64,000 nucleotides of DNA. Origin: Bacteroidota bacterium. Lineage in GTDB: Bacteria > Bacteroidota > Bacteroidia > JAFLBG01. The DNA lies in contig JAFLBG010000015.1 of assembly GCA_017303975.1 (NCBI GenBank), positions 1-64,000 of the forward strand, written 5' to 3'. A program made the translations under genes and the position numbers. This document shows positions 57,686 through 62,510 of this stretch, in pieces. The notes beneath the pieces were generated by a model. That model was not told the DNA's origin, made no database searches, and saw only the letters and a program-made list of their open reading frames with translations. Position 1 is the first letter of the stretch. Each line of letters starts with the position of its first letter.

Positions 57686-59557
57686 TTAAAAATTTAAAAA
57701 TTCTTCGAATACAAGTTGCATGTATGATTTGCCTTCTTTCTCTATGATTTTCTTTTGTTCCTCCGATAAAAATTTAAGATACTCCTCTCTATTTTGAGAA
57801 TGCACCAATACATAAGAGTGATTGGGTCTTAACCAACCAAAACCATCGGTTGCTTCATAATAGGCAAACTCCGGACTATATGGATTAAACAAATTTTTGC
57901 TCCACTTGTCGTATGGGCTAGTGTTAAAATCTAGCTGTTTAAGCAACGTAACAGGCAAATCAATTTGAGAAGCGAGCTTAGTGTACTTTGTACCCCTATG
58001 TTCTGGCTTCAACACCTCTCCATAAAATAACATAGGGATTTTTCTATACTCGGGCTGGTTAAACGCATATTTATGTGGTGTGATATGACTATGGTCGGAA
58101 ATAAACACAAACAACGTATTGGAATACCAAGGTTGTTTTTTTGCCTCTTGAATAAACTTATACATCTGCTTATCTGCATAAAAAGCCGAATTCAAATATT
58201 CTCGTTCATCACCACCCCAGGTAATACTATCTCCCATTGGTATATCGTATGGAGAGTGTGTGCTGCCTGTAAATAGTGTTGCAAAAAAAGGCTGCGCTGT
58301 GTTTTTCAACTCATTCAATTGCTTCGCATATAAGTATTCATCGTGTATTCCTAATCTTGCTCTTGGAACAGCAGCATCAAAATAGGCTTCATCTTGTACC
58401 TTATCAATTCCCTGATAATAAAGAAAAGCCTTTATGTTGGCGTAATCTAAATCACCGCCAAATAAAAAAGATGTTTGGTAATTGGCTTTTTTAAATTCTT
58501 TGATGATTGTTGGTACCGAAGCATATTTTGCAGGTTGTGCAACAACAGAATTATTGGGTTGTGCAGGAAATCCGGTAAATATACAACCTATGCCTTGGTC
58601 GGATAAAGACGCACTCGCATATAAATTATTGAACAGAATTCCTTCGGAAATTAATTTTTCGAAATTAGGAGTTACACCTTCGTAGCCACCAGTGCTTTTA
58701 ACCAAATCGGCCGACCAACCCTCTAAAATACAAAGCACAATATTAGGCTTTACACTATCAATAATTTTTATGGTCGTGTCTTTCTCGACATAGTTTATTC
58801 GTGCAACTTCTTTCTTTGCATCCTCCAAATCATAATAATGGTAAGGATTTCCTTCTATTGCCCCGGTATTTTCCCATACACTTTGAAACAAATTCCACGT
58901 ACTATTTACGGCAGCCAAATTCAAGATATTCTTATTAGAAAAATAAGCATCGCTTTGTTGTATCGGAATTTGCTGCACTCCTCCTCTAATTCCAAGTACC
59001 AGCAAAATGGGGGTGATGAGAATAAAAAGTATATTTTCAAAAAGATTATTTTTTGTGATGCCATTTTGCGCAGCAACGAATTTTAAATAAACATACTTGT
59101 ACAAGCAAAAAGTAAGCACAGCTATTACCGATAATCCTCCCCAAAAGAATACAGGTCGAGTGGTTTCAAAAATCTGCTTAGGGTCATTCAAGAATTTGAA
59201 CGCTTTGATATTCATTTTCATCCCCCACTCGTTGTATATTTCAAGCTCGGCAACAGAGATAATTACCACCAAACTAATCAACACCAATGTGAAAATATTC
59301 TTGACCCGTAAGACTTTGACACTTGGTATAAAACCAACAAATAAGTAGCACAAAAATGGAATTGCAATAAAATAAGATGCCATGGAAACGTCCAATCCCA
59401 AGCCATGGTAAAAAGCAAGTATCAATTGAGTAGCTGGAACATCTTGCAATTCACTTAAATTATATACTAAAAATACTGCTCTAAAGAATGAAAAGAGAAA
59501 AATCCAGAACAGGAAGTCGAGAATAAATAAGGTGTAGTTTTTTCTTGTATTTATCAT
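57686..59557 (-). CDS. LTA synthase family protein (membrane sulfatase-fold transferase)
   Basis: The protein has 623 aa: five membrane segments (about 1-195) and an extracytoplasmic sulfatase fold. NIVLCILEGWSADLVKSTGGYEGVTPNFEKL begins the domain; ASASLSDQGIGCIFTGFPAQP holds the probable nucleophile Ser, and GSTHSPYDIP and VFISDHSHITPHKY carry metal ligands. It differs in the active-site loop from the relative at 23143 (SDQGIG against KKSIEGIP), so the two probably act on different substrates. It is upstream of the macroglobulin gene on the same strand and may share its transcript. Confidence 0.85.
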   Translation of the reverse strand: MINTRKNYTLFILDFLFWIFLFSFFRAVFLVYNLSELQDVPATQLILAFYHGLGLDVSMASYFIAIPFLCYLFVGFIPSVKVLRVKNIFTLVLISLVVIISVAELEIYNEWGMKMNIKAFKFLNDPKQIFETTRPVFFWGGLSVIAVLTFCLYKYVYLKFVAAQNGITKNNLFENILFILITPILLVLGIRGGVQQIPIQQSDAYFSNKNILNLAAVNSTWNLFQSVWENTGAIEGNPYHYYDLEDAKKEVARINYVEKDTTIKIIDSVKPNIVLCILEGWSADLVKSTGGYEGVTPNFEKLISEGILFNNLYASASLSDQGIGCIFTGFPAQPNNSVVAQPAKYASVPTIIKEFKKANYQTSFLFGGDLDYANIKAFLYYQGIDKVQDEAYFDAAVPRARLGIHDEYLYAKQLNELKNTAQPFFATLFTGSTHSPYDIPMGDSITWGGDEREYLNSAFYADKQMYKFIQEAKKQPWYSNTLFVFISDHSHITPHKYAFNQPEYRKIPMLFYGEVLKPEHRGTKYTKLASQIDLPVTLLKQLDFNTSPYDKWSKNLFNPYSPEFAYYEATDGFGWLRPNHSYVLVHSQNREEYLKFLSEEQKKIIEKEGKSYMQLVFEEFLNF

Positions 59558-59728: not shown

Positions 59729-60733
59729 ATGAAAATATCTGCGTCTGTCTATTCCAACAAAACCAAAAACCTACTTGAACTGGTTCGTGAACTAGATACT
59801 CACAAGGTTGATTATTTTCATATTGACTGCAACGATTCTCCCTTAGTTTTTGATGACATAAAAAAAATAAAAGAGGCTAGTACTACACCAATTGACTTGC
59901 ATATAATCTCCAATAATCCGGAGCAGTACTTCGAAAAAGTAAAGCAATTGAAGGTCGAATTACTGACAATTCAATACGAGAACCTGCCCAAACACATTGA
60001 TTTATCAGGATTCGAGAGCACAAAACTGGGATTAGCAATTACATCCAACACCTCTATAACAGCTTTTGATGAATACGCATCATTTTGCGATTTTATACTT
60101 TTTATGACTACCACTCCCGGGCAAAGTGGTGGCGAATTTAATCGAGAAAATTTCAAAAAAATACGCGAGTTCAAATTAAAATATCCTGACAAAAAAATAC
60201 ATGTAGATGGGGGTGTTAATGCAGATATTTCCTTCATACTTCGTAACATGGGCGTGTATTCAAGTGTTTCGGGCTCTTACTTGGTAAATGCCGATGTAAT
60301 AGGCGGTGCGCTGCACAATATGAGAAATTCTAACTATATCCCAAACACACTGCACGTAAGCGATATGATGATGCCCATTAGCGAATTGCCTGTACTGAAC
60401 ATTACAGATGCTTCGTTTGTTAATATTCTAAAAAGTATTGATAAGTACAATTTAGGCTTTACACTTATTGTAGGCGAAAATAAATTTGAAGGATTAATAA
60501 GCAATGCAGATGTTAGAAAGGCATTGATAAAAAAAATAAATAACGTAAATTCAATTGATGTAAATGACCTACTAAACAAAAATCCTATAAAGGTGTATGA
60601 TGATTTTAGTATTTCTGATATGATTGAATTTATAAAAAACACAAAAAATAATATTTTGTACTTGCCTGTAGTTGACAGGAAAGAAAGGCTGTCCGGAGCA
60701 ATTACATTTACGAATTTAATTAAAGGAGAATAA
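59729..60733 (+). CDS. Ribulose-phosphate 3-epimerase-like protein fused to a CBS pair
   Basis: The ATG at 59729 gives 334 aa; an extension to 59678 is rejected. Residues 1-200 are the epimerase barrel with its catalytic set: Ser6 (ISASVYS), His31 and Asp33 (HIDCND), His58 (DLHIISNNP), Met126 with TTTPGQSGG, and Asp160 (HVDGGV). Residues about 205-334 are two CBS motifs (VLNITDASFVNILKSIDKYNLGFTLIV, FEGLISNADVRKAL; then LPVVDRKERLSGAITFTNLI), which bind adenine nucleotides in other proteins. The free-standing epimerase has about 215-220 aa, so this is a fusion. A DAHP synthase follows. Likely role: sugar-phosphate epimerisation under nucleotide control. Confidence 0.85.
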   Translation: MKISASVYSNKTKNLLELVRELDTHKVDYFHIDCNDSPLVFDDIKKIKEASTTPIDLHIISNNPEQYFEKVKQLKVELLTIQYENLPKHIDLSGFESTKLGLAITSNTSITAFDEYASFCDFILFMTTTPGQSGGEFNRENFKKIREFKLKYPDKKIHVDGGVNADISFILRNMGVYSSVSGSYLVNADVIGGALHNMRNSNYIPNTLHVSDMMMPISELPVLNITDASFVNILKSIDKYNLGFTLIVGENKFEGLISNADVRKALIKKINNVNSIDVNDLLNKNPIKVYDDFSISDMIEFIKNTKNNILYLPVVDRKERLSGAITFTNLIKGE

Positions 60734-60734
60734 G

Positions 60735-60775
60735 CCGAGCTTCGCTCGGAATTATGAATTAAAAATGCAGAATTA
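60735..60775 (+). repeat. Stem-loop and A+T-rich direct repeat between the epimerase and DAHP synthase genes
   Basis: CCGAGC (60735-60740) and GCTCGG (60744-60749) make a 6-bp G+C-rich hairpin with a TTC loop starting 1 base after the stop. An A+T-rich stretch with imperfect direct repeats (GAATTATGAATT, then GAATTAAGAATT) follows. The hairpin resembles a terminator without a T run, and the A+T part looks like dispersed repeat DNA. Confidence 0.5.
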
Positions 60776-60820
60776 AGAATTTTAAAATTATTCGACACAA
60801 GAAACTCGAAACTTATTTAT

Positions 60821-61825
60821 ATGATAATTAAACTAAAAAATACTGTTACTGATCAAAAAGCAACAGAAATTGCAAAAGAGCTAAGTGCCTTTATTGTTAA
60901 GAATGGCAGCACCAATAACGTTTTGGTAACCCCATCTAAACTAAAAGTTGTTGACGAAAAAATAGCTGATTTAGTAGATGCATCATGGGCTTTTAATGAT
61001 GATATTCAACTGGCTAGCAGAAGCTACATTCAGGAAACAAGAGAAATAAAAATTTCGGAAAATATAGCAATTGGCGGAAAAACAAATAACACGCTGGTTA
61101 TAACAGGACCGTGCTCTGTGGAATCGGAAGAGCAAATAGAACAAGCAGCTCAACTATGTGTTAAAATGGGAGTGAAAGTATTGCGTGCAGGCTGCTTTAA
61201 ACCGCGCACTTCACCTTACACTTTTCAGGGGCTTGGACTAGAAGGCTTGAAACTGCTTGACAAAATGCGTAGCAAGTATGGATTAAAAATTATTAGTGAA
61301 ATAAAAGACTCAACACATACAAGCGAGATTCTTGAATATGCTGATATCATTCAGGTCGGAGCCAAGGCGATGTATGATCACGGAATTCTACGTGCATGTT
61401 CTAAAACTAACAAAACAGTACTTATCAAACGAGGCTTTGGCTCAACACTTCAAGAGTTTGTGCAAGCAGCTGAGTTTGTGCTTTCCGGAGGAAATAACAA
61501 TGTAATACTGTGCGAAAGAGGAATTCGCACCTTCGAAACCAAAACACGTTTTACCCTTGACTTATGCGGTGTTGCCTACTTAAAAGAGTACGTAAATCTT
61601 CCAATTGTAGTTGACCCAAGTCATGCTATTGGCTATGCGTATGGTGTTGCAGATTTATCAAGAGCTGCAGTAGCAATGGGTGTAGATGGATTGCTAATAG
61701 AAACGCATCCCAATCCGGCTGTTGCAAAATCGGATGCTTCTCAACAATTAAACTTTGATGAATTTACAGCGATGTACAACACATTTGCGCCTATTGCAAA
61801 AGCTGTAGGTAGAAATATTATTTAG
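60821..61825 (+). CDS. aroF: DAHP synthase, class I-beta, divergent
   Basis: The protein has 334 aa: an N-terminal ferredoxin-like regulatory domain (about 1-70), then the barrel. Metal ligands are Cys98 (GPCSVES), His268 (DPSH), Glu294 (IETHPNP) and Asp305 (KSDASQ). KPRTS (127-131) marks erythrose-4-phosphate binding and separates it from KDO8P synthase. Unusual for the family, GARNMQN is GAKAMYD (Lys182 for Arg), and the EKxTRNTLDL and GTGRRDLV regions read ETKTRFTLDL and AIGYAYGV. It joins PEP and erythrose-4-phosphate, the first step to aromatic amino acids. Its end overlaps the convergent regulator gene by 8 bp. Confidence 0.85.
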   Translation: MIIKLKNTVTDQKATEIAKELSAFIVKNGSTNNVLVTPSKLKVVDEKIADLVDASWAFNDDIQLASRSYIQETREIKISENIAIGGKTNNTLVITGPCSVESEEQIEQAAQLCVKMGVKVLRAGCFKPRTSPYTFQGLGLEGLKLLDKMRSKYGLKIISEIKDSTHTSEILEYADIIQVGAKAMYDHGILRACSKTNKTVLIKRGFGSTLQEFVQAAEFVLSGGNNNVILCERGIRTFETKTRFTLDLCGVAYLKEYVNLPIVVDPSHAIGYAYGVADLSRAAVAMGVDGLLIETHPNPAVAKSDASQQLNFDEFTAMYNTFAPIAKAVGRNII

Positions 61826-62510
61826 CACTTCCCGTATTTAGCTTATAGCCTATACCTTTGATGGTTGTGATACAATTATCACCTAGGCGTTTTCTCAATT
61901 TTCTGATGTGAACATCAATTGTTCTATCACCAACAAATATTTCTCCTCCCCATACTACATCCAGTATCGTTTCGCGGTAAAAAACTTTTCCGGGCTTTGA
62001 TAACAATAGAGACAATAACGCAAACTCCTTTTTAGGAAGAAATACTTCTTTACCATTTTGAATGGCAACAAATCTCTCTTTATCTATTTGAATTAAATTC
62101 TTTTCGTCAGAAGAAGGAAGATTATTGTTGTAAACATGCCTATTGAGTAGCGACTTTATTTTATAAACCAACAACAATTCATTTACAGGTACATTGGTGT
62201 AATCGTCTGCACCGGCAGCATATGCCTCCATTTGAACATCTTCCTCCAACGTATTTCCTACCAATAGTATTGGAATACTTACATTCACTTTTTTTAATTG
62301 AATACACCACTCAAAACCTTTATTGTTATTATTAATATTAGATACAACAACTACTCCAATGGATTTATTTTCCATAATAAAAGTTACTGCGCTTGCAATT
62401 TTTTTTGATTGCAGCAAACTTATTTCCTCTGCAACAAGATGTCTGCTGATCATTTGATACAAACTATCTCCTTCTTCTAGAAGTATAATTTTGGTTTGAG
62501 AATTATCCAT
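61818..62510 (-). CDS. OmpR/PhoB-type regulator with degenerate receiver
   Basis: The protein has 230 aa. The winged-helix output domain (about 137-226) is complete: FLPKKEFALLSLLLSKPGKVFYRETILDVVW, RTIDVHIRKLRKRLG, IKGIGYKL. The receiver (about 5-122) keeps the fold and the GADDY end, but the phospho-acceptor Asp after strand 3 is Ser57/Asn58 (VVVVSNINNNNKG), the Thr/Ser of strand 4 is replaced (LLVGNT) and the conserved Lys before Pro108 is Val107. It is thus a pseudo-receiver and cannot be phosphorylated in the usual way. It is 83 bp from the phosphate transporter gene on the same strand; control of phosphate genes is inferred. Confidence 0.9.
   Translation of the reverse strand: MDNSQTKIILLEEGDSLYQMISRHLVAEEISLLQSKKIASAVTFIMENKSIGVVVVSNINNNNKGFEWCIQLKKVNVSIPILLVGNTLEEDVQMEAYAAGADDYTNVPVNELLLVYKIKSLLNRHVYNNNLPSSDEKNLIQIDKERFVAIQNGKEVFLPKKEFALLSLLLSKPGKVFYRETILDVVWGGEIFVGDRTIDVHIRKLRKRLGDNCITTIKGIGYKLNTGSAK

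Follow-up and report, generated by a model that had tools for sequence, protein, structure and literature searches.

Kdo, a sugar of the Gram-negative outer membrane, is the conserved link between lipid A and the remainder of LPS. The entry enzymes of its synthesis are usually held to be KdsD and KdsA. The first step belongs to proteins of the KdsD/KpsF/GutQ type, which couple a SIS catalytic domain to a C-terminal CBS pair, and KdsA is marked by the motif KANRS. We know of no RPE-fold enzyme that forms arabinose-5-phosphate, and our search of the literature found no paper linking RPE, CBS and DAHP synthase with one another and none describing KdsA/KdsD displacement in Bacteroidetes. The locus described here lies on the plus strand of the window, the whole 64,000-nucleotide stretch of Bacteroidota DNA that was analysed, and has the following features:

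59729-60733, plus strand: RPE-CBS fusion open reading frame, intact, 334 aa
59729-60328, plus strand: RPE-like TIM barrel, putative arabinose-5-phosphate-forming domain (fusion residues 1-200; PF00834, AF2/Foldseek, conserved residues)
60347-60730, plus strand: CBS pair of KdsD/KpsF type, putative feedback switch (fusion residues 207-334; kpsF and 4o9k matches)
60821-61825, plus strand: type I-beta DAHP-synthase-like protein from a clade of its own, putative Kdo-8-phosphate synthase, 334 aa

An earlier note on this DNA had read the first gene as an epimerase fused to a CBS pair with its catalytic residues kept, and both the domain searches and the fold bear this out; the coordinates and residues that it gave are correct. 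Pfam Ribul_P_3_epim (PF00834) matches fusion residues 2-185 (E 4.6e-23), the only other domain recovered by the Pfam search is CBS, with the SIS catalytic domain absent, and the AlphaFold2 model of the fusion (mean pLDDT 88.7), used as a Foldseek query, aligns its barrel to RPE structures with E values down to 6e-15. The barrel shares with Rpe not only this fold but also the metal-binding and catalytic residues S6, H31, D33, H58 and D160, which are invariant in all 38 distinct homologues compared. It departs from Rpe in the extra CBS pair, in the pocket, where C34, I60 and Q82 replace the RPE residues and are themselves invariant across the 38 homologues, and in the signature loop following the metal-binding His-x-Asp, which is about six residues shorter than in the canonical rpe of the same genome. 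That canonical, stand-alone rpe, which the earlier note had suggested looking for, was found at another place in the genome (G000:C52, E 1.6e-78), and the fused barrel is only 27% identical to it. On the NCBIfam rpe equivalog the fusion scores 75.6 bits, below the cut-off of 212.6 bits. The fused barrel is unlikely to be the housekeeping epimerase; it looks like an active enzyme with an altered substrate. A pseudo-enzyme is disfavoured, given that all 38 sequences keep the catalytic residues unchanged. No relatives were found in viral contigs, and the plasmid matches listed were ordinary rpe.

The C-terminal part of the fusion resembles the CBS pair of KdsD. Pfam CBS matches residues 278-332 (E 1.6e-10), and the first copy was detected by profile and fold, with the CBS pair of PDB entry 4o9k, from a putative arabinose-5-phosphate isomerase, aligning to residues 208-333 as the best PDB match to the pair by either method. 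NCBIfam kpsF matches the CBS region in 12 of 13 fusion family members, and a family profile of the pair gives its top scores against KdsD-type pairs, although with the single window sequence alone other CBS proteins rank first. The fusion shares with KdsD/KpsF/GutQ the type of its C-terminal CBS pair and, in the role that we propose for it, the first Kdo step, whereas the catalytic domain is SIS in one and an RPE-type TIM barrel in the other, and the two almost never share a genome. The adenine nucleotides that the earlier note had in view as the gating signal are not supported. Entry 4o9k was presumably solved with CMP-Kdo, which makes CMP-Kdo a putative ligand of the fusion, as a lead only. 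In eight genomes of family f3 (G002, G048, G085, G118, G149, G179, G207 and G260), the barrel and the linked synthase are kept and the profile match stops near residue 204-231 of a frame of about 320-330 aa; the C-terminal part of these fusions seems to be either diverged or unlike the CBS pair.

The neighbouring gene encodes an enzyme that profiles place among DAHP synthases. It matches DAHP_synth_1 (E 8.6e-67), scores 309 bits on TIGR01361 for DAHP synthase, above the 267.75 cut-off, and 126.5 bits on TIGR01362 for KdsA, below the cut-off of 314. The barrel, the passing TIGR01361 score and the retained KPRTS motif of DAHP synthases are all features of the type I-beta class, but the active-site loop reads GAKxMYD where true I-beta DAHP synthases have GARNxQN. 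Within the linked clade all 31 sequences have K for R (K182) and D for N (D186), and 30 have Y for Q, while all 12 unlinked I-beta enzymes have R and N at those loop positions. The first residues of the GARNxQN-type loop touch PEP in DAHP synthases (PMC6362186). In all, 21 positions are diagnostic for the clade, and in a tree that also holds two archaeal DAHP synthases and unlinked I-beta enzymes from the same class, the linked synthases form their own branch (support 100/100, length 1.92). E. coli KdsA, included as an outgroup, lies too far away to root this tree. A further difference from type I-beta DAHP synthases is the setting, as the linked enzyme adjoins the fusion and KdsC and not aromatic genes. 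KdsA belongs to the same superfamily, with KANRS in place of KPRTS and a cut-off that the linked synthase misses; the presence of the two is mutually exclusive, which suggests that they probably have the same role. A Kdo-8-phosphate synthase could plausibly have descended from a type I-beta enzyme, because the I-beta enzyme of Pyrococcus reportedly shows substrate ambiguity, going by the title of Schofield et al. 2005.

To place the locus among its relatives, we surveyed 395 Bacteroidia genomes and detected the fusion in 81, about one fifth. The synthase follows 3' on the same strand in 80 of the 81, and the lone exception ends at a contig end. Each of the 12 relatives taken from genome contigs shows the same order, with the synthase immediately after the fusion, and in most of them the two genes overlap or almost touch, though at least two of these loci belong to genomes among the 81 and the counts are not additive. 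Pairwise identities of the fusion and the synthase co-vary (r = 0.89 over 13 loci). Chance does not account for the arrangement; the fusion is widespread, and the linkage to DAHP synthase that the earlier note had proposed to count across relatives is nearly universal. The usual third gene of the operon is the KdsC phosphatase. Of 46 fusion genomes, 45 have KdsC, and in 40 of these it lies immediately 3' of the synthase on the same strand. The window's own genome is arranged somewhat differently, with KdsC outside the fusion operon and a gap of 87 bp between fusion and synthase, wider than in most relatives. Between the two genes, at window 60746-60790, there is a short AT-rich repetitive stretch (aattatgaattaaaaatgcagaattaagaatt) that looks like an insertion, as the gap in relatives is small or absent.

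The distribution of the Kdo genes carries most of the argument. KdsA, called with TIGR01362 at E <= 1e-55, was detected in 288 of the 395 genomes, 26 had neither KdsA nor the fusion, and none of the 81 fusion genomes had KdsA, an exclusion for which any p-value would be inflated by the relatedness of the genomes. Both states occur within 11 families and even within four genera (g16, g21, g24 and g45). A KdsA hidden below the threshold was considered and rejected: among the family matches listed for fusion genomes there was no frame with the size and score of KdsA, and all those listed above 200 bits were frames of at least 332 aa. We then compared the remaining genes in 46 fusion genomes and 34 KdsA genomes. 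KdsD, called with TIGR00393 at E <= 1e-30, was found in one fusion genome (the SIS part only) versus 30 KdsA genomes, while KdsB was kept in 44 and 33, respectively, with equal score distributions, and at least two KdsC-like genes occurred in 28 fusion genomes versus 4 KdsA genomes. Since fusion genomes are without KdsD and KdsA and keep the later enzymes, the operon of barrel-CBS fusion, synthase and KdsC would stand in their place. We therefore regard it as probable, from gene content and sequence, that the fusion and synthase form a displaced entry to Kdo synthesis that replaces KdsD and KdsA.

From the genomes we infer substrates, products and a CBS ligand for the pair. The RPE-fold barrel would produce D-arabinose-5-phosphate, either by C2-epimerisation of ribose-5-phosphate or by isomerisation of ribulose-5-phosphate; the former would be the two-base proton transfer of the RPE family shifted by one carbon, which the conserved two-aspartate set would fit. 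The linked synthase would then condense arabinose-5-phosphate with PEP to give Kdo-8-phosphate, after which KdsC would strip the phosphate, KdsB would form CMP-Kdo and WaaA would add Kdo onto lipid A. The KdsD-like CBS pair may act as a feedback switch on this route, plausibly by sensing CMP-Kdo. We lean, with rather less assurance than for the displacement as such, toward a second, unrecognised Kdo route in about one fifth of the sampled Bacteroidia, in which a CBS-regulated arabinose-5-phosphate enzyme of a new fold, possibly working by direct C2-epimerisation of ribose-5-phosphate, and a Kdo-8-phosphate enzyme derived from DAHP synthase have displaced KdsD and KdsA. If this is true, profile annotation in about one fifth of the sampled Bacteroidia assigns two Kdo genes wrongly to the pentose-phosphate and shikimate pathways, the apparent lack of Kdo entry genes in fusion genomes is explained, and the fusion is a natural case of a catalytic domain swap in which the regulatory CBS pair was retained.

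Several points count against the Kdo reading: RPE-fold enzymes are not known to form arabinose-5-phosphate, the linked synthase keeps KPRTS and passes the DAHP-synthase but not the KDO8P-synthase cut-off, KdsC lies outside the operon in the window's own genome, and that genome, although it carries aroB, aroA and aroC, has the linked enzyme as its sole candidate DAHP synthase, so the enzyme may also make DAHP. A bifunctional synthase would make both DAHP and Kdo-8-phosphate, at least in genomes that, like this one, are without another family member, with the fusion still providing arabinose-5-phosphate. In the window's own genome we detected, along with the three shikimate genes, kdsB, two kdsC, waaA (a match to an N-terminal query at E 4e-15, sought in this genome only), lpxB and lpxK, and we found no type II DAHP synthase and no gene of the DAHP/KDO8P-synthase family (PF00793) besides the linked synthase, in an assembly of 70 contigs that is 99.78% complete and of which the sequence covered was 2.76 of 3.43 Mb. 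One explanation is a gap in the assembly that hides a gene, the other a linked synthase that serves both pathways. The substrate ambiguity claimed in the Pyrococcus title, along with KPRTS, would also suit a bifunctional enzyme. However, a further DAHP-synthase-family gene, usually a frame of about 370 aa, is present in 70 of 80 fusion genomes, the remaining 10 include several incomplete assemblies, and an own assembly in 70 contigs may miss a gene, so that we judge a bifunctional synthase unlikely. A fusion of DAHP synthase with chorismate mutase has been described in Porphyromonas gingivalis (PMC12202928), and the type of about 370 aa, which also occurs beside KdsA in KdsA genomes, is putatively this enzyme. 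The aromatic pathway would then have an enzyme of its own in most fusion genomes.

The further DAHP-synthase-family gene also weighs against the model with which the earlier note began, in which a nucleotide-gated pentose-phosphate epimerase boosts the erythrose-4-phosphate on which the adjacent DAHP synthase, and with it aromatic synthesis, would draw. The synthase does pass the DAHP-synthase model with KPRTS intact, and in its own genome it is the sole family member alongside shikimate genes, but most fusion genomes possess this additional gene, the active-site loop of the linked synthase is altered, the window's own genome already has its normal rpe, and KdsC as the usual third gene of the operon is left unexplained. 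We dropped erythrose-4-phosphate supply as the main reading, and now hold it to be quite improbable, because it does not account for the exclusion of KdsA and the near-absence of KdsD in genomes that keep KdsB and KdsC. What survives of it is the idea of a gated supply of a precursor to the adjacent synthase, still the best model of the pair, with erythrose-4-phosphate, the aromatic pathway and the adenine-nucleotide gate given up. Synthesis of another 3-deoxy-ulosonate that replaces Kdo in LPS, such as a seven-carbon analogue from erythrose-4-phosphate, would suit the kept KPRTS motif and the commoner second KdsC of fusion genomes (28/46 versus 4/34), but has the slightest chance of all, since KdsB scores alike in the two groups and single genera contain both states, findings that favour an identical end product.

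Alongside the proposed Kdo entry route, we noted several features of the KdsC genes and of the neighbours of the locus. One KdsC-like phosphatase of the window's own genome (225 aa, G000:C9:61990-62667, or L092:1990-2667, minus strand) lies away from the fusion operon, beside a glutamine-amidotransferase gene, and has an N-terminal extension; in two relatives (L006 and L010), the N-terminal extension of the operon KdsC contains an HTH domain. The second KdsC-like HAD gene (167 aa, G000:C17:31889-32392, or L114:11889-12392) lies beside UbiA-like and Maf-like genes. Convergent with the synthase, on the minus strand at window 61818-62510, is a gene for a PhoB-like response regulator next to Pit and DUF47 genes; its receiver domain scores 22.2 bits against a Pfam cut-off of 30.2 and is possibly degenerate. 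On the other side, divergent from the fusion, the minus strand at window 57686-59557 encodes an LtaS/sulfatase-family membrane protein, possibly an envelope-related neighbour, homologues of which also lie near the fusion in L003, L005 and L006.
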